NCBI GenBank assembly: GCA_022563885.1
Contig: JADFMM010000032.1
Coordinates: 1-33,230 of the forward strand
DNA: 33,230 nucleotides
Source of the DNA: Planctomycetota bacterium
GTDB lineage: Bacteria > Planctomycetota > Phycisphaerae > Sedimentisphaerales > Anaerobacaceae
Direction of reading: 5' to 3'
Under the pieces are notes generated by a model. The model had not been told where the DNA came from. It made no database searches and saw only the letters and a list, made by a program, of their open reading frames with translations. The translations under genes were made by a program, and so were the position numbers. Below, piece after piece: positions 152 through 16,198 of this stretch; positions within the stretch are counted from its first letter, which is position 1, and each line of letters starts with the position of its first letter.

Positions 152-1357
152 TCAGGGATCACGCAGAAATCGCGAAATCCTGGACAGTCTCCTTGATAGG
201 GTAGCTCTCGACTCAGAGAGGCTCTTCGCGACGCAAGGCCACGGGTCGTTCAGACTAAAATATGGAACAACGTGCCAGTGTAGAACACTCTTTAGCCATG
301 TTCGAAAATCGATAGCGCCCATGCTTCGAAGTTCCCGAAATGCGTCTATGTCCCTTCTAGGCTCCCACTGTCTAACGTATTCTTTGAAGGTGTCTATTCG
401 GGGTAGCGGCAATCCTGTGAGTCGACAATAAATCATGAAAGCGATGTCTATGCCACTGCGCGTGATTTGCTCCTGGACCGCCGTGAATCTTGGATTAACC
501 TCAATCACCTTCAGTTGGCCATCACGGAGATCTCGCTTAAATTCAATGTTTCCTAATCCTCTGTAATCCGTCCCCGCGAAGAACCTTTTTCCGAGTTCTG
601 CGACTTCGGGCAGCCACTCGGTAATTTGTAACGTTCCTCCACCCTCATTAACGGGATAACGCCTAATACACCGTTTTGTGAAATTAAACAGTAACGTTGA
701 ATCTTCATCGACATAAGTATAATAGCTACAGGCCAAATCGTCCGGACCGGGTATCATTTCACAAATCATTACTTGCACACCCTTGTTCGCGGCGTCCTTC
801 GCCTTACTGATTAGCTCATCGAAGTCATTTGCTGAGAGATACTTCCTATCGGGGAATTGCCGTCGAAACAAATGTGAGTGCAATGGCTTTAAAATGACCG
901 GGAATTTGACCTTGCCCTCAAGTTTCAGTACGTCTTCTAACGTGTCGATCTCCCAAAATTCAGGTGTGGGGCAACCTGCAGCTCTTGCCATTTCCAGCGT
1001 CTTCTTCTTGTTCAGCATATCCAACTGAATGCTGGGATTGTTGTAGTCAACAAGATAGTGAGACGCGAGTGGGTCCCTGTTTTTCGCCAGAAATTCAACT
1101 GCATCATCATCGCATGCCAGCAAGATATTGCCATGATAGTCATCAGTTGAATCGCTAAGCAACAATTCGGCCCAATAAGTACCTATATCCACATCGTCCG
1201 GGCAGATGTGCTTGCGATGACAGTACCGAGATCTCAGTGCCCAACATTTGTTTCTCGCCGACACAGATACGGGAATTCCTCTTCTTCCTAGACTCCGAGC
1301 AACAGACAACGTATTCTGTTGCCCACCCAGTACAATCACTGGTGTAGGATTCTTCAT
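152..1357 (-). CDS. ATP-grasp carboxylate-amine ligase family protein
   Basis: This is a probable ATP-dependent ligase that would join a carboxylate to an amine through an acyl-phosphate. The protein is about 401 residues. The N-terminal part is a Rossmann-like pre-ATP-grasp domain (VIVLGGQQN, residues 7-15). Next come a nucleotide-binding lysine (VILKP, 154-158), the central strand ICEMIPG (198-204), and the Mg/ATP-binding end GLGNIEF (267-273) and VIEVNPR (284-290, Glu286 and Asn288). The start at 1357 is preferred over the ATG at 1378 because GGGGA lies about 8 bases upstream of it, while nothing SD-like precedes 1378. The family includes D-aspartate ligase and carbamoyl-phosphate-synthase-like enzymes; the substrate cannot be read here. 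It lies 88 bases after the RraA-like gene on the same strand and is the last gene of that run. The C-terminal 100 residues are basic and have no motif I recognise. Confidence 0.85.
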   Translation of the reverse strand: MKNPTPVIVLGGQQNTLSVARSLGRRGIPVSVSARNKCWALRSRYCHRKHICPDDVDIGTYWAELLLSDSTDDYHGNILLACDDDAVEFLAKNRDPLASHYLVDYNNPSIQLDMLNKKKTLEMARAAGCPTPEFWEIDTLEDVLKLEGKVKFPVILKPLHSHLFRRQFPDRKYLSANDFDELISKAKDAANKGVQVMICEMIPGPDDLACSYYTYVDEDSTLLFNFTKRCIRRYPVNEGGGTLQITEWLPEVAELGKRFFAGTDYRGLGNIEFKRDLRDGQLKVIEVNPRFTAVQEQITRSGIDIAFMIYCRLTGLPLPRIDTFKEYVRQWEPRRDIDAFRELRSMGAIDFRTWLKSVLHWHVVPYFSLNDPWPCVAKSLSESRATLSRRLSRISRFLRDP

Positions 1358-1445
1358 GACGTGTTTCCCCAACAACATAGGGCGACGGTAAAAAGCGGAA
1401 AGTCAGCATACGCTTCGACCACCAGCCAACCAATCAATGGCCGGG

Positions 1446-2165
1446 CTAGAGCGTCTCGTCTTCCCCTAAAACACCTTTGGCACGTAGCGTGGGAATAAGC
1501 CAACCCGGGTAGATACCGTCAGGGTCGTCGCCTCCGATTGCCGCAAAGCGTTTCTGCTCGGCTTCGACGCGACCCTGGGCCCAGCCGATCGCACTTTGCG
1601 CCAGTTGTTGTGGCACTACTACAATGCCATCGGCGTCGCCTACCACGACGTCTCCGGGATTGACGACCAAGCCGCCGCAGGAAATCGGCAAGTTGACCTG
1701 CCCTGTCCCTTCTTTACCGCCACCGCATGGGGAAACACCGCGGCAAAAGACTGGAAATCCGCTTGAAATGAGTTCACGGCTGTCACGTACGGCACCATCC
1801 AACACGAGGCCGGCCAGGCCCTTGCGCATCGACATTCGTGTGGTCAACTCTCCCCAACAGGAGTTCGACAGGCTGCCGTGTGAATTGACAACGAGCACGT
1901 CACCCGGCTCGGCGAGCTTGAGCGCCGCATGGACCATGAGATTGTCGCCTACGCGCGTTTCGACCGTAATCGCAGAGCCAGCGAAGCTAGACTCTGGATT
2001 TAAAGGCTTCATTCCGCTGTCCATGACTCCCCGTCGCCCTATGCCATCACCAATAATGGCCGACTTAAACGTTCCTAATTGCTCAATTATCTTCTTCGGG
2101 GCCCTGTCGATCTCCTTGACGATGCAAAACCCTGGTTTACCGTATATCTTTCTTGTGTTTGTCAT
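1446..2165 (-). CDS. RraA / HMG-aldolase family protein
   Basis: The 239-residue protein belongs to the RraA-like fold, whose catalytic members are class II pyruvate aldolases (4-hydroxy-4-methyl-2-oxoglutarate aldolase) or oxaloacetate decarboxylases. The signature VLDGAVRD (121-128) gives the substrate/metal residues Arg127 and Asp128. The C-terminal motif GDVVVGDADGIVVVP (171-185) is typical. In characterised aldolases the motif is D-x20-R-D; the matching position here is Glu106 (WGEL), so it is E-x20-R-D, a variant seen in related sugar-acid proteins. A role as an aldolase or decarboxylase on a sugar-derived oxo acid is more likely than RNase E inhibition, given the neighbouring dehydrogenase and ATP-grasp genes. 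GAGGG lies about 5 bases before the start. Confidence 0.85.
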   Translation of the reverse strand: MTNTRKIYGKPGFCIVKEIDRAPKKIIEQLGTFKSAIIGDGIGRRGVMDSGMKPLNPESSFAGSAITVETRVGDNLMVHAALKLAEPGDVLVVNSHGSLSNSCWGELTTRMSMRKGLAGLVLDGAVRDSRELISSGFPVFCRGVSPCGGGKEGTGQVNLPISCGGLVVNPGDVVVGDADGIVVVPQQLAQSAIGWAQGRVEAEQKRFAAIGGDDPDGIYPGWLIPTLRAKGVLGEDETL

Positions 2166-2247
2166 GTTTCCCTCAAGTATTGCCTGAAAGCAAAAGATCT
2201 TCAGTCATATCGCTGGCACCAACAGGCTCAAATAAGACAACAATTTG

Positions 2248-3231
2248 CTACGATTCTTGCCTTCTTGGCAAGACCTCCGGGTTGGCAAGACATACCAGAT
2301 CGTAGCTGCCGTCTCTAAGAAATCTCAACACATTGTCTACAGTTTTCATCCCCATACGATGATTAGACTCTCCCGTTATGCCTGCAACGTGAGGCGTGAC
2401 CACTAACCTGGACGATTCCCAAAGCGGGTTGTCGGCATGGGTCGGTTCATTGCCGAATGTGTCCAAGCCGGCCCCCATGATTTGTTCTTTTTGCAGCGCC
2501 CTCAGAAGTGCTGCTTCATCGATCAGACCGCCGCGGGCTGTGTTGATCAAAAGTGCAGTGGGTTTCATCAGGTTGAATGCTTCGGTACCGATGATATTTC
2601 TGGTCTCATCGGTCAGGGGACAGTGCAAGCTCACTACATCGACAACAGAGAGCAATTCATTCAGGCACATTACCTGCTGCACACCATCGAGGCGTTTGTC
2701 CTCCGCCAGGTAGGGATCGTATACCGTGATCGTCACACTAAATGGTTTTACCAATCTTGCCAATCGCCGGGCGACATGGCCATAGCCCACCAAACCCAGG
2801 TGTTTGCCGGCAAACTCAATACCATTATAAGTTGATTTATCCCAGTGGCCCTTGCGGACACGTTCATTCTGAATGAGCAGGTTTTTCATCAATGCAAGAA
2901 TCATCGCAAGGGTGTGCTCTGCCACAGACTGAACACTGGCACCTGCCCCTATGAGGACCGGGATGCCTTTTTCCGTTGCTGCCTTCAGATCGATGTTGTC
3001 TACTCCGACGCCATGTTTGGCAATAACCTTTAGCTCGGGTGATGCTTCAATAAGGTCTCCAGTGAATCTGCCCGTCCGTACGATAACTGCGTCAAACTGC
3101 ATGTCGTCTACTTGCGTTGAGAATTCTCCGGGGTCGGAGTACGGCGGCATCGCTTGAACTTGGGCACCGTTCAATCTGAACTCTTCCATGGCCTGCGGGA
3201 CCAGTGGAGGCCCGGTTATAATTACTTTCAT
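2248..3231 (-). CDS. D-isomer-specific 2-hydroxyacid dehydrogenase (SerA-like)
   Basis: An NAD(P)-dependent oxidoreductase that interconverts a 2-hydroxy acid and a 2-oxo acid. The 327-residue length matches the single-domain-pair family without an ACT domain. Visible features are the dinucleotide loop GLVGYGHVA (146-154), the substrate/NAD arginine in NTARGG (Arg233), the catalytic glutamate in FGNEP (Glu262) and the catalytic histidine in TPHVAG (His281). It is first in the minus-strand run, followed by RraA and ATP-grasp genes, and faces a Gfo/Idh gene across a 0.5-kb divergent region. A second, clearly diverged homologue lies at 4808-5785, so the two are unlikely to be redundant copies of serA. 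The substrate is unknown. Confidence 0.88.
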   Translation of the reverse strand: MKVIITGPPLVPQAMEEFRLNGAQVQAMPPYSDPGEFSTQVDDMQFDAVIVRTGRFTGDLIEASPELKVIAKHGVGVDNIDLKAATEKGIPVLIGAGASVQSVAEHTLAMILALMKNLLIQNERVRKGHWDKSTYNGIEFAGKHLGLVGYGHVARRLARLVKPFSVTITVYDPYLAEDKRLDGVQQVMCLNELLSVVDVVSLHCPLTDETRNIIGTEAFNLMKPTALLINTARGGLIDEAALLRALQKEQIMGAGLDTFGNEPTHADNPLWESSRLVVTPHVAGITGESNHRMGMKTVDNVLRFLRDGSYDLVCLANPEVLPRRQES

Positions 3232-3280
3232 TTCATTGCTCGTATTGTTTTCATGGGCGGATGCAACTCACAAGCGCAAT

Positions 3281-3311
3281 AGATGAGTCGCTTTTATTGT
3301 GCCACTCATCT
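3281..3311. promoter_or_regulatory. Inverted repeat in divergent intergenic region
   Basis: AGATGAGT (3281-3288) and ACTCATCT (3304-3311) form a perfect 8-bp inverted repeat with a 15-base spacer. It sits about 50 bases upstream of the start of the minus-strand dehydrogenase at 3231. It could be an operator or the stem of a leader hairpin. No convincing promoter pair was found next to it. Confidence 0.3.
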
Positions 3312-3376
3312 GATTGATTCAAAGGATATTTTCAAGAGTGTGGCATCGTCAAGTACCTTCCTCGGTCTTGTACTTA

Positions 3377-3466
3377 GGGACCGGCAAGAAATAACTTGGA
3401 CTTTTGAATGCCCAATTGCACCCCATCTTGGACCCCAAATTGTCCAACTTATTTCTTGCCGATCCC
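3377..3466. repeat. Short MITE-like element (copy 1, 90 bp)
   Basis: The element has 25-base imperfect terminal inverted repeats (3377-3401 and 3442-3466, 23 of 25 positions matching), starting GGGACCGGCAAGAAATAA and ending with its near-complement. It is flanked on both sides by TTA (3374-3376 and 3467-3469), which could be a target-site duplication. Bases 3377-3432 match 16019-16074 at 55 of 56 positions, and the right end matches 16159-16198. No coding capacity. It lies in the divergent region upstream of the Gfo/Idh gene; the rest of 3467-3758 holds only weak small palindromes (for example GGATTA / TAATCC at 3569-3586). Confidence 0.8.
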
Positions 3467-3758
3467 TTACCTAACAAGAAGCTGTCGGGCATATGTGCTT
3501 GTTTCTTGAGAGCAATTCTCGCTGTCGTATTAATCTACCGCAGTGCCATGTGCAAGCGCTAGGCTAAATGGATTAATTAGATAATCCTCCATCGCCCTAT
3601 GACCGATTATCGCCACAGACCAGGCTGCATCTATTGTGGCTTATTTTCCCTAACACAGGGTACAGAAGTGATTGTAGAACCCGGAAGTAAGTTGAAGTGC
3701 TCCGCAAGAAATTGCAGACAAGTACCATCTACGCCGAACTAAACTGGAGTTGAACGCT

Positions 3759-4811
3759 ATGGGTGAACCGATAAGAGTGGGCATTATTGGCCTCGGAAAG
3801 ATGGGAGGAATTCGTGCCCAATGCATCCGTGAGAATGACCAGACGGTATTGATCTCAGGTACAGATCCTAACCCTCCGGCGAAGGGTTGGGACGACATAC
3901 AGGTTCTTCCTGATTACCGGACGGTCATAAATTCCGGCGTCGATGCCATATTTGTGTGCACCCCCAACCGCTTTATCCCCGATGTGGTGGTGGCGTCCCT
4001 GGATGCCGGCAAGCATGTGTTTTGTGAAAAACCACCTGGCCGCGATATGCACGATATTGAGCGGATTATGGAGGCCGAAAAACGCAATCCGGGTCTGGTT
4101 TTAAAGATAGGGTTTAACCACCGATATCACTATGGAATCATGGAGGCTAAAAAGAGCGTTGACAGCGGAAAATACGGAGAAATCCTGTGGATGAGGGGCG
4201 TTTACGGGAAAGCGGAAGGGTCGGGAAATCCAGATGAATGGCGTCTGAATCCGGCGCTTTCCGGAGGAGGTATCCTGCTGGATCAGGGCATTCACATGTT
4301 GGACCTCTTCAGGTATTTTTGCGGGGAGTTTTCCGAGATCAAGAGCATGTGTACCACCGCCTATTGGGACATTCCGATGGAAGACAACGCGTTTGCCTTG
4401 CTGCGAGATAAGAGAGGCCGCATTGCCATGCTACACAGCTCCTTTACGCTGTGGAAGCACCGTTTCACGCTGGACATATGCCTGGAAGACGGATACATCA
4501 CTGTCGAGGGTATGCCTTCAGTGAGTCGCAGCTATCGCGACGAATGGATCATTCAAGGTCGCAGGCACACTGGCTATGCCATCGGTAATCCGCCGGAGGA
4601 ATCCACTTTCTGTAATACGGACCCTTCCTGGGAGATGGAGCTGGCGGAATTCGTCGATTGCATTCGTACGGGACGGCCACTCGAAAACGGCACTTCAAAC
4701 GATGCTTATGAGACGATGCGCCTGGTCTTTGGCATATATGAAGCCGATGATTCATTCATGAAGCAAGCGGCCGGTAAGTCGGAAAATAAATGTTTAAGAA
4801 CGCAAGTATGA
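3759..4811 (+). CDS. Gfo/Idh/MocA family oxidoreductase
   Basis: A predicted NAD(P)-dependent sugar or cyclitol dehydrogenase of 350 residues. It has the N-terminal dinucleotide motif GLGKMG (11-16), the family motif CEKPPG (89-94, Lys91 active site) and the C-terminal-domain residues Asp175 and His179 (LLDQGIHMLD). The ATG at 3759 is chosen over the in-frame TTG at 3750 because GGAG ends 9 bases before the ATG and abuts the TTG. It starts the plus-strand run, and its stop overlaps the next gene's start (ATGA at 4808-4811), so the two are translationally coupled. It is only distantly like the Gfo/Idh protein at 16359-17435, so a different substrate is expected. Confidence 0.88.
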   Translation: MGEPIRVGIIGLGKMGGIRAQCIRENDQTVLISGTDPNPPAKGWDDIQVLPDYRTVINSGVDAIFVCTPNRFIPDVVVASLDAGKHVFCEKPPGRDMHDIERIMEAEKRNPGLVLKIGFNHRYHYGIMEAKKSVDSGKYGEILWMRGVYGKAEGSGNPDEWRLNPALSGGGILLDQGIHMLDLFRYFCGEFSEIKSMCTTAYWDIPMEDNAFALLRDKRGRIAMLHSSFTLWKHRFTLDICLEDGYITVEGMPSVSRSYRDEWIIQGRRHTGYAIGNPPEESTFCNTDPSWEMELAEFVDCIRTGRPLENGTSNDAYETMRLVFGIYEADDSFMKQAAGKSENKCLRTQV

Positions 4812-5785
4812 AAAGCAGCACCCCCATTGCTGTCGCATCCCGTTCCTTTTCCCGTCACCCACAGTTGCGCGCGGAGTTGCTAGAGAAATACTCCAGTGTC
4901 CGGTTCAATGACGACGGCGTGGCCCTCGAAGGAACGGCTTTGATCGAATTCGCCCGAGGACGTGAAAAACTGATTATCGGACTGGAATGTGTCAATGAAG
5001 CGTTCCTGGCGGCGCTACCCGAGCTTAGGGTCATCAGCAAGTATGGCGTGGGCACGGACATGCTGGACCGTGAGGCCATGGTGCGCCGTGGCGTTCACCT
5101 TGGCTGGACTGGGGGGGTCAATCGCCGGTCGGTGGCTGAGTTGGCGATCGCGCTGATGCTCTCACTTTTGCGGAAAATCCCACAAGCCTACGCGGACATG
5201 CGTGAAGGAATTTGGAAAAACCGCAAGGGAAAGGAGCTGTCGGGTCGCACGGTTGGTATTGTCGGATGCGGCCATGTAGGCAAGGAATTGGCCATTCTGT
5301 TGCGGGCATTCGGCTGTAGAGTATTTGCCCATGACATACTGGATTTTCCCGAATTCTACGCCGCCCATCAGGTAGAGCCTCTGGCGCTTGAACCACTACT
5401 GCAGCGCTCGGAGATCGTATCGTTGCACGTTCCCTTGGACGATAGCACCCGCAACATCCTAAATGCCGAACGCCTAGCACTGCTGCCATCGGAGGGCCTA
5501 GTGATCAACACGGCTCGGGGCGGTTTGGTAGATGAGGCCGCCTTAAAACAGATGCTGAAGGAGGGCCGACTCGCCGGGGCCGCCTTCGATGTTTTCACCG
5601 ACGAACCCCCACAAGATGAGGAGTTGCTGCAATTGCCAAACTTCCTTGGCACGCCGCACATCGGTGGGAGTTCACAAGAGGCCATCCTGTCGATGGGACG
5701 GGCCGCCATCAGTGGATTGGGTGAGAATGCCCTGCCTTCAGTCGAGCGCGTCGACGGAGACAAAACCTGCAATATGACGACCTGA
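4808..5785 (+). CDS. D-isomer-specific 2-hydroxyacid dehydrogenase, second paralogue
   Basis: A 325-residue NAD(P)-dependent 2-hydroxyacid dehydrogenase. Motifs: GIVGCGHVGKE (150-160), Arg237 in NTARGG, Glu266 in FTDEPP, His284 in TPHIGG. The ATG at 4808 is preferred to 4790 because it makes the classic ATGA overlap with the Gfo/Idh stop. It shares the fold and all catalytic residues with 2248-3231 but differs widely elsewhere. Coupling to a Gfo/Idh enzyme and the spacing of only about 40 bases to an HpcH-type aldolase suggest sequential steps on the same 2-oxo or 2-hydroxy acid. SerA-like phosphoglycerate oxidation is possible but not favoured by the context. Confidence 0.87.
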   Translation: MKSSTPIAVASRSFSRHPQLRAELLEKYSSVRFNDDGVALEGTALIEFARGREKLIIGLECVNEAFLAALPELRVISKYGVGTDMLDREAMVRRGVHLGWTGGVNRRSVAELAIALMLSLLRKIPQAYADMREGIWKNRKGKELSGRTVGIVGCGHVGKELAILLRAFGCRVFAHDILDFPEFYAAHQVEPLALEPLLQRSEIVSLHVPLDDSTRNILNAERLALLPSEGLVINTARGGLVDEAALKQMLKEGRLAGAAFDVFTDEPPQDEELLQLPNFLGTPHIGGSSQEAILSMGRAAISGLGENALPSVERVDGDKTCNMTT

Positions 5786-5823
5786 GATTCGAAACCATGG
5801 ATTGTCCCTAGGAGACATGATCG

Positions 5824-6627
5824 ATGAGACCGAACACGCTCAAAGAAATCTGGGCACGGGGAGAAGCCGTGTTAAACGGCTGGTGTTCCATTCCCAGCTC
5901 CTTTTCCGCCGAGGTGATGGCACATCAGGGGTTCGACTCCATTACCATTGACATGCAGCATGGTATGGTAGGATACCAGGTAGCGGTGACCATGTTGCAG
6001 GCGATTTCGACGACGTCGGTCATTCCACTGACCCGAGTCCCCTGGAACGATCCGGGCCGACTCATGAAAATGCTCGACGCCGGTTCCTATGGCGTCATCT
6101 GCACGAGGATTAACACCGCCGAAGCTGAGGAAAAACTGGTTCGCGCCTGTAAATATCCCCCCATGGGATTTCGTAGCTTTGGCCCTATCCGGGCGAAGTA
6201 TTATGCGGCTGGCGCGACCCACGGTGGCGGCGATTACCATACCCATGCCAACGAAGAAACCCTCGTGATTCCCCAGATCGAAACCCGCGAGGCCATCCGG
6301 AATCTTGACGAGATCCTCCAGGTTCCGGGGATTTCGGCGATCTATGTGGGCCCCTCAGATTTGGCCATGGCATTGGGTAGCGAGCCGCGAACGGGACAGA
6401 AGGACCCTCAGGTCATCGAGGCAAAACAAACGATCATTGAAACCTGCCAGCGACACGGCATACCGGCGGGCATTCACACCAATTCCACCGAAGTCGCGGT
6501 AGAGATGATTCGAAAGGGATTCCAGTTGACGTCCCTTCAAAGCGACGATCGCTTCCTGATGTCAAAAGCAAAACAGGAAGTGAATGCGGTAAGAGATGCC
6601 CTGAAGGTTCAGAGCCGCGTGTCATGA
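5824..6627 (+). CDS. HpcH/HpaI family class II aldolase
   Basis: A metal-dependent pyruvate aldolase of 267 residues, usual for the family. It would split, or in the biosynthetic direction form, a 4-hydroxy-2-oxo acid from pyruvate and an aldehyde. The active-site set is complete: His46 (MQHG), Arg71 (TRVPW), metal ligands Glu153 (QIET) and Asp179 (GPSDLA). GGAG sits 9 bases before the start. Relatives include 2-keto-3-deoxy-L-rhamnonate aldolase and 4-hydroxy-2-oxoheptanedioate aldolase. In this cluster it could build the carbon skeleton of a 3-deoxy-2-oxo sugar acid or break one down; the sequence does not decide between them. Confidence 0.9.
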   Translation: MRPNTLKEIWARGEAVLNGWCSIPSSFSAEVMAHQGFDSITIDMQHGMVGYQVAVTMLQAISTTSVIPLTRVPWNDPGRLMKMLDAGSYGVICTRINTAEAEEKLVRACKYPPMGFRSFGPIRAKYYAAGATHGGGDYHTHANEETLVIPQIETREAIRNLDEILQVPGISAIYVGPSDLAMALGSEPRTGQKDPQVIEAKQTIIETCQRHGIPAGIHTNSTEVAVEMIRKGFQLTSLQSDDRFLMSKAKQEVNAVRDALKVQSRVS

Positions 6628-6665
6628 CTGAGGGGCGTTCACATTCGTTGTCAATACGTGCCCTG

Positions 6666-6829
6666 TTAAGAGCACCTACGCAAAATGACTCTGCATTCGA
6701 GCGGCTTATTTTCCCTCTGGACGGCGTCAGGCTGCATCGACCCTCCTCGGATGGCCTGCTTCGCCTTCCTTGCCGGAGGCAAAAACGCTCGCTCTCGGTG
6801 CGACGATCATTTTGCGTAGGGGCTCTAAA
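6666..6829. repeat. MITE-like element with 23-bp terminal inverted repeats
   Basis: The left end (6666-6688, TTAAGAGCACCTACGCAAAA...) and right end (6807-6829) are inverted repeats matching at 21 of 23 positions. Inside, CGAGCG and CGCTCG extend the fold. The whole 164 bases could form one long hairpin. It has no coding capacity and fills nearly all the gap between the aldolase and SIS-isomerase genes. It is unrelated in sequence to the element at 3377 and 16019, and no second copy was found in the window. Confidence 0.7.
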
Positions 6830-6857
6830 TACCAGGCAGAATTAAAAGGAGACTCGC

Positions 6858-7478
6858 ATGGCCTTTCCCGACGCCAAATTCAGTGACATCGAGAGTTATG
6901 CCAACGGCTACTTTGACCACCTCAATCAGGCAGCCGCCTCGGTGGATCGCCAAAAACTAGAAGAGGCAGCCGACATTCTCACAAAGGTGTATACCCATGG
7001 CGGTATGGTCTATTCCTGCGGCAATGGCGGATCGGCGGCCATCGCCAACCATCTTGTGTGCGACCATTGCAAACTGGTGCAAACGGATACCGAGCTAACG
7101 CCACGCGTTGTTTCTCTCAGTTCAACAGTGGAAATCATAACGGCTATTGGAAATGACATCTCCTATGACGAGATATTTCTCTATCAACTCCGTTCTTTGG
7201 CGAAACCGGGTGACGCACTCATTACCATCAGCTCTTCGGGAGATTCAGAGAATATCGTGCGAGCGGTCCAGTGGGCCCGGGAAAATGGGGTCTCAGTTAT
7301 TTCCATGACGGGCTTTTCCGGCGGGCGGTCAGCCGAACTATCCGATGTGAATATCCATGTTCAAGCGGAGAACTACGGCATGATCGAGGATGTGCATCAG
7401 TCCATCATGCATTTACTTGCCCAATATGTTCGTCAAACTCACATGGAAGAGGAACTGGTCAAGGATCGCAGATTTTAG
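6858..7478 (+). CDS. SIS-domain phosphosugar isomerase, GmhA-like
   Basis: A 206-residue protein resembling sedoheptulose-7-phosphate isomerase (GmhA), the first enzyme of heptose synthesis. SIS motifs are CGNGGSA (54-60) and SSSGDS (126-131). His65 and His180 align with metal/active-site residues of GmhA, but the position of the catalytic Glu65 of E. coli GmhA is Asp69 here (HLVCD). That may mark a relative with a different phosphosugar substrate. AGGAG lies 6 bases before the start. It ends the plus-strand run and converges with the ATP-grasp gene at 7603. No heptose kinase or nucleotidyltransferase (HldE or HddA/HddC type) is in the window. Confidence 0.85.
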   Translation: MAFPDAKFSDIESYANGYFDHLNQAAASVDRQKLEEAADILTKVYTHGGMVYSCGNGGSAAIANHLVCDHCKLVQTDTELTPRVVSLSSTVEIITAIGNDISYDEIFLYQLRSLAKPGDALITISSSGDSENIVRAVQWARENGVSVISMTGFSGGRSAELSDVNIHVQAENYGMIEDVHQSIMHLLAQYVRQTHMEEELVKDRRF

Positions 7479-9741: not shown

Positions 9742-9918
9742 CTATTCATAGGCAGCACAATTGCGGAAGCCCTCAGGCATGTCTTTCCTTCGGTAGGTGG
9801 CCCAAGATATGATCTTCGGTATTTCCGTCCGGCGAATCTCGGCCAGCATCGGGACGGCCAGCGGCTCCGACTGGATCTTGCCCGCCAGCGCTGGGTAAAG
9901 CAACCACAGCAATACCCT
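9742..9918 (-). pseudogene. Unidentified coding-like remnant
   Basis: On the minus strand a 58-codon open stretch reads like real protein: it begins RVLLWLLYPALAG, includes EIPKIISWATYRRKD and ends GFRNCAAYE before TAG at 9742-9744. No start codon or RBS can be assigned, and it begins right after the intron-like hairpins, as a 3' exon fragment might. I cannot name the family. The rest of 9442-9741 shows nothing else coding. Confidence 0.25.
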
Positions 9919-9990
9919 AGATAGGGTAGGGCCTTTTCGGCCCCCTTCCCTCCTGAGAACCGAGCGTATTGGCTTTCATACCGTCGGCTC
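9913..9990 (-). mobile_element. Possible group II intron 3' end (domains V-VI), degraded
   Basis: Read on the minus strand, 9990-9957 is a 34-base segment starting GAGCCG, with GAAAGCC inside and ending CGGTTC. This is the size and outline of intron domain V, though its inner stem pairs poorly. It is followed by TCAGGAGGGAA and a hairpin (GGCCC / GGGCC, 9929-9943) and a palindrome TACCCTA-TC-TAGGGTA (9913-9928), as expected for the domain VI end. No reverse transcriptase gene is present. Known group II introns show this layout; the identification is by pattern recall only. Confidence 0.35.
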
Positions 9991-9996
9991 ATGCAT

Positions 9997-10071
9997 TTAG
10001 CAAGGACTAGCGTTCGATCGCATCAATTGTGTGCAGCCATCACCCGTACCCTTCAGCGCATGACTTTCCAC
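9997..10071 (-). pseudogene. Truncated duplicate of the sugar-transferase gene start
   Basis: From a GTG at 10071 the minus strand reads VESHALKGTGDGCTQ and on to a TAA at 9997-9999, 24 codons in all. The intact sugar transferase at 14509-15402 begins MESSVLKGTGDRWQQ. The similarity continues upstream through the leader: 10022-10120 aligns with 15354-15455 with few gaps, including GTCAGATCCG and the CCCTTTT block. So this is a relic of a duplicated 5' region whose start codon changed from ATG to GTG and whose body has been lost. It lies next to the intron-like sequence. Confidence 0.65.
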
Positions 10072-10224
10072 CTTTTCATCCCCTTTTGGATGGTCAGATC
10101 CGCCTCACTCCTGCCAATGCAAGAGTATTCCCGCTCTGTAGGCCTCGCGGAAGTCAACAAAACAAGGAATTAGCGAGAGAGAGGAATTTCCGATAAGGAA
10201 TTCCGACAAGACTCGTCTATCGGG

Positions 10225-10992
10225 CTAAAGCGGGACACTACGCCCCACTGCCGAGAGTTCCCGTGGACGGGACGCACACTGACGCTCGTCCGGCTGGCGG
10301 AGAAAAAGGCAGACGGAACCAAGCATCAGGAGGAATGCACAATTCGCCTCCTTGATTTCAACCCAGGGGTGGGTGGGGTAGTTCAACGACTCCAGAGCAG
10401 GCATGGACTCGGAAATGATGTAGTTCAGCACGAAGAAGACAGAGAAAGCAACGGGCAAGACCGGCATCCTGATGTCCGAGAACAGCGTCCGACACCTCTG
10501 CGAATACCTATCCAATAGTGGCACGATCACACCGAACACTAGCCAGAAGACACTGAATAGCCTATCCCCATTGATCAATAGCTTCAGGAAGCTCTTTCGA
10601 CTGCCATCTTTCTCTTTGCCGTGGAACCAGTTGAGGTTGTGAATATTGATCTCGCCCTGCCGATTCGCGTCAGCCAAGGCTTCAGGAGTCCCGACACCAA
10701 ACACCCGTTGCCCCCAACTTATTTCCTCTAAGAAGCACACTAGGAAGAAGAGTCCAAGCAGGAGTACCGCCACCTGACTCCTACTACCTGAACCCCTATT
10801 TGATCTAATCTTACGGTTCTTCCGGTAAATAAGGAAAAACACCAAGGCCGCCCCCAGGAAGCACAACGCACCGACAGTTTCCACGAGGCCATCTTCGGCG
10901 CTCAATCTACGAATTGTCTCGTCGTCCAAGAAGACCACGGCATAACCAGCAATCACCAACACCAAAAGAATCAGACTTTTCCCGAAGCTCAT
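10225..10992 (-). CDS. Orphan membrane protein with EEISWGQR motif
   Basis: A 255-residue protein with about six hydrophobic segments (5-22, 36-55, 74-88, 145-162, 177-194, 216-231). The conserved-looking blocks are LEEISWGQRVFG (88-99), EINIHNL (114-120) and PWVEIKEAN (209-217). The first block is typical of a widespread family of unknown function. The ATG at 10992 is preferred to that at 11016 because GGAGG lies about 9 bases upstream. The pattern of acidic pair, then aromatic, then Gln/His, and a terminal helix preceded by two glutamates, resembles the proteins at 8809 and 28872. No function can be assigned. Confidence 0.75.
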   Translation of the reverse strand: MSFGKSLILLVLVIAGYAVVFLDDETIRRLSAEDGLVETVGALCFLGAALVFFLIYRKNRKIRSNRGSGSRSQVAVLLLGLFFLVCFLEEISWGQRVFGVGTPEALADANRQGEINIHNLNWFHGKEKDGSRKSFLKLLINGDRLFSVFWLVFGVIVPLLDRYSQRCRTLFSDIRMPVLPVAFSVFFVLNYIISESMPALESLNYPTHPWVEIKEANCAFLLMLGSVCLFLRQPDERQCASRPRELSAVGRSVPL

Positions 10993-11016
10993 CGAAGCAC
11001 ACCTCCAACACGCCAA

Positions 11017-11464
11017 TCAAGGGAGTTCTCGCGGTCAAAACAGAACCGACATCCTCTGTGAAGGAGTCGGTTTTTATCACGACGAACACTAAAAGAATAA
11101 TGCCAACACTGAACTATGTTGAACATATGGGGGGGGATAATAATAAGAAACCCCATTACCCGCACCTCTCTCTGAGGACTGTACCATGATTGAATCATAT
11201 TGTCAATGACATCTTACAAGCGTTCATTGACACATTTATGCCCCTGCCAGGTGTCGATCTGTTGTGTCCGATAATCCTTGTACGGGCATAAACTTCTCAA
11301 TGAAATGCTGCTGTCGCAAACCACGCCTGTCTTGACACGACCATCGCTCCAAAGCTGGAATACCGTTGACTTGGCGCATTCCACGGAGAGGCGTTATGCC
11401 GGCGCTCGAATCGTCCGAAGATTGAGTTGGATATAGGGACAAAGGGCAAACTAAACCCTGGATC
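11017..11464. other. Divergent intergenic region
   Basis: No gene is supported. It holds the promoter candidate at 11178-11206 for the minus strand, a G8 run (11129-11136), and two small perfect palindromes (ATGATT-G-AATCAT at 11186-11198 and TGTCA-A-TGACA at 11201-11211) overlapping that promoter. No clear promoter was found for the plus-strand gene at 11465, although TTGACA occurs at 11227 and 11332. Confidence 0.4.
11178..11206 (-). promoter_or_regulatory. Sigma-70-type promoter for the minus-strand membrane protein gene
   Basis: On the minus strand TTGACA (11206-11201) is followed by a 17-base spacer and TACAGT (11183-11178). The spacer contains the palindrome ATGATTCAATCAT, and the -35 box is part of TGTCA-T-TGACA; both could bind a repressor. 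The leader to the start at 10992 would be about 180 bases. Confidence 0.4.
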
Positions 11465-13192
11465 ATGTTGACTATGATAACCTTGATTGAAGAAAAAACC
11501 CACAGGGAACCGACACAATCCACCGAACGACTGCTTGGAAAAGGAAGGTCGGCGCTGGTTTATCGCGCGCGAAGCGACGACGGGCAGTCCGTGGCGCGTA
11601 AAGTGTTTGAAGGCGAGTGGCTGGCGAATCTTGTGCATGTCTTATTGCACGGTGCTCCCAACCCCTACACCTGGAGTGACAAGGCGATTGGTGCCGCGGT
11701 AGCCCGACGCGAGTTGTTGGCCACGCTGGTTGAGTATTGGTTTGATGACAAACTCCGCCTACCGACGTTCGTGGCGGCTAGATGGAATCCGCAAGCGCGT
11801 GCCTACGAGATCCAGATGGAACTCATCACGGGGCGGCCTGCCGCACTACACCATGCGTTCTCCGCCGACCGAGACGGCGAATTGCGCGACCTGCACCACC
11901 GGGTCATGAAGCCCCTGCAGCGGCATCTCATCCAGTCTGGCTTTGACGGGCTGGTGTGGCAGGCTGGGATGGCCAATCCCGTCGCCGCGAGTAACTTCCT
12001 GCTTGATTCGACTCAAAGAACGTCTTCCCCTGCTGTCACTGGGCCGAACGGAATAAAAGCGTGCGTTGATGTTAGCGAAAATGATCCCGACAGACCGTTT
12101 GGCGCCTGGGTTTGGATAGACCTCGAGTCGGGCGTACCGGCATTGTTTCCGCTTAATCCGTGGGCGCTAATGCGCTTCTATCTGCCCAAATCTCTCCAGC
12201 ACGGCGGCCCATTGTTTGACGACGTCGACGAACCGAAATTAACGGCTTACCTGCAGGACCATCGCGACGAGATGATCAAGAAGTTCGGCCAGAATCGTTT
12301 TGATCGCATGCTTGAACTTGCCTGTCAGATCGGGAGGTGCCAGCACGCGTGGCGGTCCATGCGGCGCATAGACAGAAGCGTCACATGCGCCCACAAGCGA
12401 GGGAAGATCAATCAGGCACAGGCCGACTCATACCGTCAGCGTCCCATCGCCTGGTACTCGCGGCTATTTGTTCGGGGTGTAAAAAGCGGATTTAAGAAGC
12501 TCGGCCGAAAGATTCGCTCTTTTCTATCGACGTTCACGCCTCGCTGGATCTGGAGCAAAGTGTGCATGACGGCGCATTTTCTGGTTTCGCAGAAATACCG
12601 GGCACGCATCGGACGGGTACTGGTGGTGCATCGAATTGCCTCGTGGGCGCGCCGTCGGCAACTTTTCCCACATGAGGCAAGGGTGTTGCGGCTGCATGTA
12701 AAGAGTGAGGAAGCGACCGAATACCTCGCGGATTTTGGGATTCATCTCGCCATCAAGCCACTTATTAAATTCAGTCAGTGGGTCATTTTGCCGGCCCTGC
12801 ATGGTGCCGGCGTCATCAGCCTGAACACGATGATGATCGGTATTGTGTCCGGCGGGCTGATAGGACGCACGGTGTACACACTGTTCCGATTGATTCAGAT
12901 GACGATGCGAGGTCGCGAAAAACCGTGGATTGCGCTGATGGTCGGTTGCCTGCCGGTGGTGGGGAACGCGGCATATCCTGCGCAGATCATCTATACCAGT
13001 ACTGAACGAGATCACGACGTGGCACGGTTCATTCTGTACGACCTCTTTACCTGGGCCGGACGGGCTCTACCCATCTGGGGCGGGCCGGACACCATGACCG
13101 AGCACTTTTTCAACCGCTGGCCAAGCGTGGTCTTTCCTGCGAAGTCTCGGCGACTGCATGGGGAAGACCGTCTCGACGACAGCGACGAATGA
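11465..13192 (+). CDS. Kinase-fold (possibly pseudokinase) membrane protein
   Basis: A 575-residue protein. The N-terminal half resembles the protein-kinase fold: a glycine-rich loop LGKGRSALVYRA (24-35), the lysine VARKVF (43-48), a catalytic-loop-like NPVAASNFLLD (171-181) and WIDLESG (217-223) where the DFG motif would be. The usual HRD aspartate is not visible and DFG reads DLE, so it may be inactive or atypical. The C-terminal third has two or three hydrophobic segments (about 435-480 and 490-515). The start has only a weak GGAT upstream; the ATG at 11474 is an alternative. It overlaps the lyase gene by ATGA (13189-13192), so the two are made together. I do not know the family's function. 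Confidence 0.7.
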   Translation: MLTMITLIEEKTHREPTQSTERLLGKGRSALVYRARSDDGQSVARKVFEGEWLANLVHVLLHGAPNPYTWSDKAIGAAVARRELLATLVEYWFDDKLRLPTFVAARWNPQARAYEIQMELITGRPAALHHAFSADRDGELRDLHHRVMKPLQRHLIQSGFDGLVWQAGMANPVAASNFLLDSTQRTSSPAVTGPNGIKACVDVSENDPDRPFGAWVWIDLESGVPALFPLNPWALMRFYLPKSLQHGGPLFDDVDEPKLTAYLQDHRDEMIKKFGQNRFDRMLELACQIGRCQHAWRSMRRIDRSVTCAHKRGKINQAQADSYRQRPIAWYSRLFVRGVKSGFKKLGRKIRSFLSTFTPRWIWSKVCMTAHFLVSQKYRARIGRVLVVHRIASWARRRQLFPHEARVLRLHVKSEEATEYLADFGIHLAIKPLIKFSQWVILPALHGAGVISLNTMMIGIVSGGLIGRTVYTLFRLIQMTMRGREKPWIALMVGCLPVVGNAAYPAQIIYTSTERDHDVARFILYDLFTWAGRALPIWGGPDTMTEHFFNRWPSVVFPAKSRRLHGEDRLDDSDE

Positions 13193-14442
13193 TCAACGAC
13201 CGAATGGTACGCACTCCTTCCATACGACTCGCCCGGACCAGCAGGACATGGCTGTTCTTTCTTACTGCCGTTCTGGTCGCCGTGGCAACCTCTGCCGACC
13301 GTGTCGGCGTCAGTCAAGATCAATCCTGTCGGGGGCCCAGCGGAGATTCCGACCAGACCCGAAGCCATCCCACAGGCGGCGATGGCTCTGACGCTCATGC
13401 CCATCTTCGGTATGAAGGCTTTGGTGCGGTGACGCGTGGAAGCGAGAGTAGCCCCGGTCGCTATGACACCTTTCATGTCACCACGCTAGCAGACTCGGGA
13501 ACCGGTAGCCTGCGGGACGCCGTTTCGCGTGGCAGGCGTCACATCGTATTTGATCTTGGGGGTACGATCACGCTGCAACACAATCTGAACATTCGCTACT
13601 CCTTTATCACGATTGATGGGGCTTCCGCCCCGGACCCGGGAATCACCATTGTTCAACCGGGAACAATCGGTACTACGATTGAGGCTCGGCCCAGCACGGG
13701 TCCGGTTTCGGATGTGGTGATTCATCACCTGCGCATGGAGGGACAGGCAGTTGAGCACCAAAACCGTGGAGATATCTGGGGAATAGATGGCGATGATGAA
13801 TCGGTTTCTCGTGTCGTGATCGACCATATTACAGCTCGGGCGGCGACCGATGGTGTTTTTGATATCTATGGTGATGTCACGGACATCACCCTTCAGTGGA
13901 ACCTGATCACCGACACCGTTACGATGCTGCATCTTTCAACCGGAAGCACGAGGCAGGCCCGAGAGCGGGTCTCTATTCATCACAATGTGTTTGCCGGCAA
14001 CAATGAGCGACAGATCAGGATTCGGCATAACAATCAATTGGTCGATTATGTCAACAACGTCATATACGGCTGGGGATACTTTGAAGGAGGGGCCGCCGGA
14101 CTTGACATCGCGTACGACAAGGGCGAAATAAACCCGAGTCTCAACGTCGTGAACAATCTCTTTCATTATGTGAGCGGTTTGGCCGGTGACGAGGATGATG
14201 CCATCCGGTTTAAGCGGGGAGCCGATGAGGGAAATGTCTATTTTAGTGGGAACCTTCTTCCATTGGCGGAGGCCGACAATCGTTCGACCTCGCAAGCCCT
14301 ACCGATTCCAGTGGCCGCTCGAGTCACGACCTTTACCGCCAGCGAGTTGAAAGAGGCGGTCTTGCCCTACGTGGGTACCCACTATCCAACTAAAGCGGAA
14401 ACCGCGCTGCTTGAGTCTATCGGGAACGCCCTCCAGAGGTGA
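13189..14442 (+). CDS. Secreted PL1-type (pectate lyase-like) polysaccharide lyase
   Basis: A 417-residue right-handed beta-helix protein. After a long basic N-terminus comes a hydrophobic signal segment (21-34, likely cleaved after ATSA near residue 36). The domain opens with EGFGAVTRG, then HVTTLADSGTGSLRDAV and IVFDLGGTI, the usual start of PL1 lyases. It also has VVIDHITARAATDGVFDI and YVNNVIYGWG, matching the family's beta-helix strands. Lyases of this kind cut uronate-containing polymers by beta-elimination. Within a polysaccharide locus it may trim or release the cell's own polymer. It is coupled by a 4-base overlap to the kinase-like protein and converges with the sugar transferase gene. 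Confidence 0.85.
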   Translation: MINDRMVRTPSIRLARTSRTWLFFLTAVLVAVATSADRVGVSQDQSCRGPSGDSDQTRSHPTGGDGSDAHAHLRYEGFGAVTRGSESSPGRYDTFHVTTLADSGTGSLRDAVSRGRRHIVFDLGGTITLQHNLNIRYSFITIDGASAPDPGITIVQPGTIGTTIEARPSTGPVSDVVIHHLRMEGQAVEHQNRGDIWGIDGDDESVSRVVIDHITARAATDGVFDIYGDVTDITLQWNLITDTVTMLHLSTGSTRQARERVSIHHNVFAGNNERQIRIRHNNQLVDYVNNVIYGWGYFEGGAAGLDIAYDKGEINPSLNVVNNLFHYVSGLAGDEDDAIRFKRGADEGNVYFSGNLLPLAEADNRSTSQALPIPVAARVTTFTASELKEAVLPYVGTHYPTKAETALLESIGNALQR

Positions 14443-14508
14443 TTCCCGCGATCTTTCCACCCTCTGGCATTCTGCTAAGAAACTCGCCGAGTGACTCTCC
14501 CAGTCTAA

Positions 14509-15402
14509 CTACATCGCCGCCTCTACAGCCGTGTCGGACTTCTCGTCCAAAGCGTCATCCTCCGGCGCCGCTTCATTCTGCTGCCTCTCTCGAATGGTAT
14601 CGAGCAGCTGCATGACGATGGCACTCGGTGTCTTGAGGATAATGGATATGTCCAACAACAAGCTCTTCTTCATCCAATAGCGGACATCAAGATCCACCAT
14701 TTCATTGAAGGAGAGTCTATTCTTTCCGCTCACTTGCCAGAGGCCGGTCAAGCCGGGCATTGCCTGCAAACGCTCGCGATGGTGAGATGAATACTGCTCC
14801 ACTTCATAGGAAATCGCGGGCCGGGGCCCGACGAGACTCATATCGCCTTGCAGGACATTGAAGAGCTGAGGAAGTTCGTCGATGCCCGTCTTCCTAAGGA
14901 CATTCCCAAAGGGAATGATGCCCGGATGCCTGTCCAGTTTCTTCATGGGTTTGTGGGAGATTCCAGCACCCGCTTGAGCGTCCGCAATAATCTTGATGAG
15001 GTGTAGCTTATGGGTAGTGGACTCAGCGGCCACTTCGTAGGTGCGAAACTTCCACATGGTGAAAGTCTTTCCCTTGAACCCAACCCTCTCCTGCTTGAAG
15101 AATACCGGTCCTCTTGACACCAATTTGATGAGAACGCCGACGATGGCTAGGATAGGGAAGGTGAGAATGAGACCAATAGTTGCCCCCGTAACATCCAAAG
15201 CCCGCTTCCACTGCGGAAGCGTTTGATTTGTCTCCTTCAGCCCATCGGCGCCATGTGCCTTGATTCCTGGGGATTTACCCTCCCTGATGTTGACAATCTT
15301 CGGGTCTGGCTGTTGGTGGGTCCCCTTCCCGGAAGACACGTTGCGGACAACGTCGAATTGTTGCCAGCGATCCCCCGTACCCTTCAGCACGCTACTTTCC
15401 AT
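14509..15402 (-). CDS. Initiating sugar transferase (undecaprenyl-phosphate glycosyl-1-phosphate transferase)
   Basis: A 297-residue protein of the WcaJ/bacterial sugar transferase family, which moves a sugar-1-phosphate to undecaprenyl phosphate at the inner membrane to begin the repeat unit. A disordered 60-residue N-terminus is followed by KRALDVTGA (66-74), one membrane-entering segment (75-97), MWKFRT (116-121), the catalytic Asp175-Glu176 (GIDELPQLFNV), SLVGPRP (189-195) and PGLTGLWQVSG (216-226). It lacks the N-terminal multi-helix domain of full-length WbaP/WcaJ. GGGGGG lies 8-13 bases before the ATG. It is transcribed alone, away from the main operon, from the promoter at 15486-15515. 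Confidence 0.93.
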   Translation of the reverse strand: MESSVLKGTGDRWQQFDVVRNVSSGKGTHQQPDPKIVNIREGKSPGIKAHGADGLKETNQTLPQWKRALDVTGATIGLILTFPILAIVGVLIKLVSRGPVFFKQERVGFKGKTFTMWKFRTYEVAAESTTHKLHLIKIIADAQAGAGISHKPMKKLDRHPGIIPFGNVLRKTGIDELPQLFNVLQGDMSLVGPRPAISYEVEQYSSHHRERLQAMPGLTGLWQVSGKNRLSFNEMVDLDVRYWMKKSLLLDISIILKTPSAIVMQLLDTIRERQQNEAAPEDDALDEKSDTAVEAAM

Positions 15403-15455
15403 CTTTTCACCCCCCTTTTCGGATTCGTCAGATCCGTCCTCACTCCAGTCAATGC
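15354..15455 (-). repeat. Leader and first codons duplicated at 10022-10120
   Basis: This stretch, spanning the leader and first 16 codons of the sugar transferase gene, aligns with 10022-10120 with only a few single-base gaps. It is the intact source or sister copy of the relic there. Confidence 0.65.
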
Positions 15456-15759: not shown

Positions 15760-16018
15760 ATGTCATAAGTCGTTTATACAACTTAGTTTACATCATAGTC
15801 CTGCTCCATAGCCTGGAATCAGATGGACCTTCCTAGAAGAGGAAGTACGTGTCTGCTGGAAGAATTCGGCGTGCAGCCCACGGGGCGAAGCTATGCAAAT
15901 AATTACGTACTTTCAATAGGTGATTTAGGTATCCTGGGTCGTCCTCGGCTACCAAGATACTGCGGCGTTCAGTGGCGCCCTGAGTTGACTGCCATGGGGA
16001 AGTAGGTCTACCCCCCTA

Positions 16019-16198
16019 GGGACCGGCAAGAAACAACTTGGACTTTTGAATGCCCAATTGCACCCCATCTTGGATCGCTTCCCAATCGCGACATCCGCGA
16101 CGTAGAACAGCTACGCCCGTGGTGTCGCTCAATCGGTCGCGACCAAATATGGGGCACACTTGGACCCCAAATTGTCCAATTAATTTCTTGCCGATCCC
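16019..16198. repeat. MITE-like element (copy 2, 180 bp, longer form)
   Basis: It has the same ends as the 90-bp element at 3377-3466: left repeat 16019-16043, right repeat 16174-16198. It has a further 90 bases in the middle, bounded by direct repeats CTTGGA (16069-16074 and 16159-16164). One deletion between those repeats would give exactly the short form. The interior contains the palindrome GGTCGCGACC (16135-16144). There is no coding capacity and no clear target duplication (CTA / CTT at the edges). It lies about 160 bases upstream of the second Gfo/Idh gene. Confidence 0.8.

Follow-up and report, generated by a model that had tools for sequence, protein, structure and literature searches.

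Two interleaved gene sets in a planctomycete contig

The window analyzed here, the whole 33,230-nucleotide stretch of contig JADFMM010000032.1 (part of a draft genome of 6.5 Mb assigned to the Planctomycetota), interleaves two independent gene sets near its left end. Four plus-strand genes, here termed cassette A, lie inside a set of minus-strand genes, here termed module B. The two sets are considered independent because each occurs alone elsewhere with conserved gene order, and no other locus found holds both. Our best explanation, which we favor tentatively, is that cassette A is a transferable unit for oxidizing an internal sugar phosphate, and that module B is a separate acid-amine module of planctomycete polysaccharide loci. 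The features of the region are:

152-1378, minus strand: ATP-grasp ligase 1 (ATPg1), module B; CPSase_L_D2 match
1446-2165, minus strand: RraA-type aldolase/decarboxylase, module B; PF03737, E 5e-47
2248-3231, minus strand: D-2-hydroxyacid dehydrogenase SerA1', module B; groups with RraA-linked dehydrogenases
3376-3467, no strand: inverted-repeat element resembling a miniature inverted-repeat transposable element (MITE), shortened copy with 26-nt inverted arms, between SerA1' and cassette A
3750-4811 (likely start ATG at 3759), plus strand: Gfo/Idh/MocA dehydrogenase Gfo1, cassette A; PF01408/PF22725
4790-5785, plus strand: D-2-hydroxyacid dehydrogenase SerA2, cassette A; own clade
5824-6627, plus strand: HpcH/HpaI class II aldolase (HpcH), cassette A; PF03328
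6666-6829, no strand: second MITE-like inverted-repeat element, 23-nt arms, between HpcH and SIS
6858-7478, plus strand: GmhA-like SIS-domain phosphosugar isomerase (SIS), cassette A; PF13580
7603-8712, minus strand: ATP-grasp ligase 2 (ATPg2), module B; profile match to the ATP-grasp domains of cyanophycin synthetase and GshAB

A preliminary description of this DNA had joined seven of these open reading frames (ORFs) into one pathway that it could not match to any known one. The seven ORFs, their families and their orientations were all verified by Pfam and profile matches, and the lack of a pathway match was a fair assessment because none of the seven reaches an NCBIfam equivalog cut-off. 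The SIS protein scores 117.7 bits against the TIGR00441 (GmhA) equivalog (cut-off 209 bits), and the two window D-2-hydroxyacid dehydrogenases, both of which contain the Arg/Glu/His catalytic triad and the NAD(P) fold, score 279.7 and 209.4 bits against the phosphoglycerate dehydrogenase (SerA) equivalog (cut-off 454 bits). It was also correct that no nucleotidyltransferase is found among these genes. ATPg2 was absent from the earlier list and belongs with the minus-strand genes.

The single pathway itself was rejected. In other loci the four plus-strand genes are accompanied by neither RraA nor ATP-grasp genes, the minus-strand set is found elsewhere without Gfo1, SerA2, HpcH or SIS, and the comparison of loci together with the dehydrogenase tree gives the two runs separate evolutionary histories. 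As proposed, a ketose phosphate plus pyruvate would yield a 3-deoxy or 2-hydroxy sugar acid, to be linked by ATP-grasp activity to an amine for the neighboring polysaccharide. All of the genes do stand together beside a polysaccharide locus, and pyruvate could be used by both aldolase families, but the two subsets are joined in none of the compared loci and SerA1' is not the usual partner of the cassette, leaving this scheme very improbable. The possibility, raised at the same time, that the families are together only by chance holds, on gene neighborhoods, for the set of seven and not for either subset.

Distribution and synteny of cassette A

Cassette loci were found by scanning genome contigs with HpcH and then searching all loci with the window genes by tblastn, and L098, L099 and L100 were added from a SerA2 search of other genomes (L-numbers denote the loci compared and G-numbers the genomes, with G000 the window's own). 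Cassette A is found whole or nearly whole in nine other loci, where its gene order is usually preserved and its surroundings are usually not those of a polysaccharide locus. The order Gfo1-SerA2-HpcH-SIS is kept in L006, L008, L009 and L010 and is rearranged in L011. The cassette is cut by contig ends in L012 (Gfo1-SerA2-HpcH) and L007 (HpcH-SIS), and L013 harbors a divergent version, with Gfo1 and HpcH present and SIS at 31% only. Complete cassettes are 66-83% identical to that of the window; the nearest relative, L012, also from the Planctomycetota, is 95-96% identical. By label, the hosts comprise Halothiobacillaceae, Desulfuromonadales, KSB1, Calditrichia, Kiloniellaceae, Alphaproteobacteria and Planctomycetota. 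Because similarity is so high across phyla, we infer, from these identities rather than from a reconciled tree, that the cassette has spread horizontally as a unit. The pairwise distances among the four cassette genes are correlated (r 0.56-0.87).

SerA2 is rare outside the cassette. At cassette-level similarity it is found in 4 of 82 genomes of the KSB1 phylum and, with the first few candidates per genome scored, in at least 2 of 385 alphaproteobacterial genomes and at least 3 of 369 genomes of a gammaproteobacterial sample. A weaker SerA2 relative in L102 is without a cassette, and searches of plasmids recovered no cassette A. By eye, the ORF lists contain no dedicated transporter, sugar kinase, dehydratase or nucleotidyltransferase beside the cassette, which suggests that its substrate is an internal metabolite. 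Within the library searched, literature queries on cassette A, on a sulfoquinovose route and on the RraA/ATP-grasp set returned nothing relevant.

Partner genes and the glucose-6-phosphate dehydrogenase pattern

In seven cassette loci a 6-phosphogluconolactonase (PGL)-like gene is found between SerA2 and HpcH or, in L011, beside SerA2. The motifs SGGRTP, DERWV and [DE]SNE are intact in all seven of these Pfam-checked proteins, for which lactonase activity is predicted, and in four genomes the cassette gene is the sole strong PF01182 copy. With grouping limited to cassettes whose SerA2-HpcH interval is covered, PGL is carried by the cassettes of G294, G296, G297, G298, G299, G358 and G922 and is missing from those of G000, G300 and G375. 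Glucose-6-phosphate dehydrogenase (G6PDH; PF00479/PF02781) is absent from six of the seven genomes with a PGL-bearing cassette, the exception being G298, and present in all three without cassette PGL. 6-Phosphogluconate dehydrogenase (6PGDH) is split in the same way in the genomes tested, with G294 and G299 lacking it. G294, G299 and G922 lack KDPG aldolase; G296, G297, G298 and G358 have it. The simplest reading of this pattern, a suggestive one, is that the cassette may need a phosphogluconolactonase-type activity and bring its own where the genome has none. In the window's own genome zwf (G6PDH) is directly followed by what appears by eye to be a beta-propeller-like lactonase gene of another family. 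The PF01182 gene of that genome was rejected as the missing lactonase, since it resembles a glucosamine-6-phosphate deaminase-type gene beside an Nramp-like transporter.

A second partner, like PGL a member of the cassette in its full form, is a further D-2-hydroxyacid dehydrogenase, SerA1, which adjoins SIS or stands divergently from Gfo1 in L007-L010, L012, L098 and L100. These cassette SerA1 proteins form their own clade (support 0.999). L011 and L013 instead have an unrelated LDH2-type dehydrogenase next to HpcH. The tree, together with the lack of the usual SerA1 in the window's genome, excluded SerA1' as this usual partner.

Active-site residues and a possible oxidative route

Gfo1, conserved as the first cassette gene in other loci, has the Lys of an EKPP motif, and SerA2 forms its own clade (support 0.994) and contains the Arg/Glu/His triad. 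Both have an Asp after the second strand, as expected for enzymes that would use NAD. The closest solved relatives of HpcH, about one third identical, are structures of the hydroxyketoacid aldolase SwHKA, and HpcH keeps equivalents of SwHKA Q43, H44, R69, E145 and D171, covering the metal-binding Glu and Asp, the His base and the Arg. SwHKA accepts hydroxypyruvate, which is contacted by Phe210 in place of a family-conserved Leu, and Pro92 is named among its metal-site residues (PMC10099721). The cassette HpcH proteins have an invariant His at the Phe210 position, making a donor other than pyruvate plausible. For SIS, the nearest solved relatives are phosphoheptose isomerases; the active-site His of GmhA is kept, and an NHLVCDHCKLV-type signature is present cassette-wide.

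From these residues and the lactonase, six steps can be proposed. SIS would interconvert a ketose phosphate and an aldose phosphate, and Gfo1 would oxidize the aldose at C1 to a lactone, which PGL or the cell's own lactonase would open to a phospho-aldonate. Oxidation at C2 by SerA2 would then give a 2-keto-phosphoaldonate, and retro-aldol cleavage by HpcH a three-carbon 2-keto acid, with hydroxypyruvate the best guess, plus an aldehyde phosphate. The keto acid could finally be reduced by SerA1 or the LDH2-type enzyme. Given the lactonase partner and the G6PDH pattern, the condensation of a ketose phosphate with pyruvate that had been suggested earlier is less likely for the cassette than oxidative cleavage.

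A bolder proposal, which we regard as doubtful, is that cassette A could constitute an undescribed oxidation of hexose or heptose phosphates that dispenses with G6PDH, 6PGDH and an Edd-type dehydratase, with HpcH yielding hydroxypyruvate and an aldehyde phosphate, and that it has spread between phyla and replaced the oxidative entry to the pentose phosphate pathway in several lineages. Should the proposed route operate, it would give several lineages that seem to lack a working oxidative pentose phosphate pathway another way of oxidizing sugar phosphates, and it would account for a 6-phosphogluconolactonase whose substrate has no obvious source. The cassette enzymes are soluble, small and from well-expressing families, making the route directly testable.

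Alternative explanations and the window's copy

Several observations weigh against an oxidative role for cassette A. The association of PGL with missing G6PDH (one-sided Fisher p ~0.03, by hand) comes from ten partly related, mostly draft genomes and is uncorrected for relatedness, and G298 breaks the pattern. Phosphogluconate could be used otherwise in the four cassette genomes with KDPG aldolase, the SIS step often duplicates what ordinary sugar-phosphate isomerases do, and the cassette's usual SerA1 was not found in the window's own genome. The window HpcH has Thr94-Arg95 (6103-6108) in place of the Pro-Met, or a close form of it, seen in all other cassette members, L012 included. Finally, relatives of SerA2 and Gfo1 occur together with a cytidylyltransferase in L101, a distant locus of polysaccharide type, and this keeps a biosynthetic reading alive.

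In that biosynthetic reading, a sugar aldehyde would be extended by HpcH with a three-carbon keto acid, and the product then tailored to an acidic sugar by the dehydrogenases. The polysaccharide locus of L101 has SerA2 (56%), Gfo1 (42%), a distant HpcH (27%), a dehydroquinate synthase (DHQS)-like gene, a short-chain dehydrogenase/reductase (SDR) and the cytidylyltransferase, and the window cassette itself adjoins a polysaccharide locus. However, the L101 aldolase lies outside the cassette subfamily, no glycosyltransferase or cytidylyltransferase is found next to the cassette in its other loci, and a 6-phosphogluconolactonase is unexpected in such a pathway, so this reading appears rather unlikely. 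The L101 genes (9918-15214) belong to a small gammaproteobacterial genome, and it is possible that this locus makes an uncharacterized CMP-activated acidic sugar.

The cassette could also be catabolic much as outlined but act on another sugar, for example a heptose phosphate supplied through the GmhA-like isomerase, or release pyruvate instead of hydroxypyruvate. Such a role would fit the phosphoheptose isomerases to which SIS is closest, the pyruvate released by most HpcH aldolases and the transporter-linked, apparently catabolic loci in which related HpcH genes are found. Against it, a pyruvate product requires a 3-deoxy substrate and the cassette is without a dehydratase, and SIS has an Asp at the position of what we take to be the catalytic Glu65 of GmhA. 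We consider this version somewhat unlikely. The surroundings of wider-family HpcH genes in Rokubacteria and Chloroflexi, as read by eye, are too mixed to point to a substrate. Wider-family HpcH genes in L046-L070 (e.g. L051, L057, L061 and L066), from Chloroflexi and others, repeatedly stand beside a SerA-type or LDH2-type dehydrogenase.

A different explanation concerns the window alone, where the cassette may be a decaying or repurposed copy whose place beside the polysaccharide locus is functionally meaningless. The usual SerA1 has been lost, and MITE-like elements flank and split the cassette, with insertions at its edge and between HpcH and SIS. The element of 3376-3467 belongs to a high-copy family: it recurs in longer form at 16017-16198, and the ~288 kb sampled from the genome's other contigs contain roughly 15 or more copies or fragments; that of 6666-6829 is rarer, with two copies (84-87%) on one other contig (L142). 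Thr94 occupies the position of SwHKA Pro92, which is Pro in every other cassette member, and the activity of the window aldolase itself is uncertain because an otherwise invariant active-site Pro-Met has been lost. The statement that all key catalytic residues are visible accordingly stands for the R/E/H residues of both dehydrogenases and the Q/H/R/E/D residues of HpcH but not for this pair. On the other hand, the four reading frames are all open, the dN/dS of the window cassette genes against L012 is 0.13-0.22, indicating purifying selection over most of the divergence, and the two-residue change in HpcH could be either real or an assembly error. We consider decay or repurposing an unlikely explanation.

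Module B in planctomycete polysaccharide loci

Relatives of ATPg1 are found in 10 of 392 genomes of the phylum, the window's own included. In all five of the best ATPg1 matches outside this genome (L104-L108, extended as L118-L122) the order is dehydrogenase-RraA-ATPg2-ATPg1 on one strand. Pfam places this dehydrogenase in the 6PGDH-like/DUF1932 type for the two loci checked, and by eye it looks alike in the others. PssY-, Wzy- or export-type genes accompany the set; this is clear for L118 and L120-L122 and was judged by eye for L119. In at least L120-L122 the set is followed by an HTTM-like membrane protein and a polysaccharide deacetylase. The window differs in that SerA1' takes the place of this dehydrogenase and ATPg2 is split from the rest by the oppositely oriented cassette A.

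SerA1' groups with RraA-linked dehydrogenases (support 0.989) and not with the cassette SerA1 clade, and on Rhizobium and Paracoccus plasmids its closest sampled relatives are immediate neighbors of an RraA gene. One 3.97 Mb entry described as an Acinetobacter baumannii plasmid (L113, NZ_CP064203.1) probably represents a misfiled chromosome. The closest solved relative of RraA is 4-carboxy-4-hydroxy-2-oxoadipate aldolase (3noj), and the active-site Arg127-Asp128 is invariant in eight sequences. The AlphaFold model of ATPg1 (pLDDT 88) has Foldseek matches to CPSase-like proteins, PurK, biotin carboxylase and L-amino-acid ligases; the ATP-grasp fold of ATPg2 was recognized by profile, its structure model being poor.

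By family, ATPg1 and ATPg2 are putative carboxylate-amine ligases. RraA and the dehydrogenase could shape a small hydroxy or keto acid, which one or both ATP-grasp enzymes would ligate to an amine located on the polysaccharide or close to it. Ligation of an acid to an amine in polysaccharide loci is thus a fair reading of module B, and it is close to the preliminary description, whose acid-plus-amine idea fits these loci with ATP-grasp ligases and not cassette A. Likewise, the connection to polysaccharide holds for the minus-strand genes but not for the plus-strand cassette, which usually lies outside such loci elsewhere. The recurring set of RraA and two ATP-grasps may mark an uncharacterized acid-and-amide decoration system in planctomycete polysaccharide loci.

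To the right of ATPg2 lies a polysaccharide locus with a PssY-type sugar transferase, a second Gfo/Idh, a DegT aminotransferase, a Wzz/kinase-like protein, a sulfotransferase and AsnB. Two adjacent ORFs without a Pfam match, at 11465-13192 and 13189-14442, appear by eye to be protein kinase-like and secreted pectate-lyase-like, respectively. About 100 intergenic bases near 10025-10120 are repeated near 15356-15455 with 81% identity.

Comparison with known systems

Like the oxidative pentose phosphate and Entner-Doudoroff entry, cassette A would combine a putative 6-phosphogluconolactonase, with canonical motifs in seven cassettes and missing from that of the window, with an NAD(P)-linked first dehydrogenase. 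It differs in having a Gfo/Idh enzyme for G6PDH, which is not in the cassette and is missing from most carriers, and SerA2 plus HpcH for 6PGDH or Edd-Eda, with no dehydratase. The cassette HpcH shares its metal and base residues with SwHKA of Sphingomonas wittichii but is only about one third identical, with His for Phe210 and, in the window copy, Thr for Pro92. SIS shares the fold, family and active-site His of GmhA, but has Asp where GmhA presumably has Glu65 and no heptose kinase or nucleotidyltransferase genes nearby. SerA2 belongs to the same family as 2-ketogluconate-6-phosphate reductase and related D-2-hydroxyacid dehydrogenases, and would act on the same C2, but it forms a separate clade, in which no characterized member was found. 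For module B, the nearest parallels are the catabolic SerA/RraA pairs of the Rhizobium and Paracoccus plasmids, in which relatives of SerA1' likewise stand directly beside RraA; those pairs are accompanied by transporters and no ATP-grasp, whereas module B is found in polysaccharide loci.

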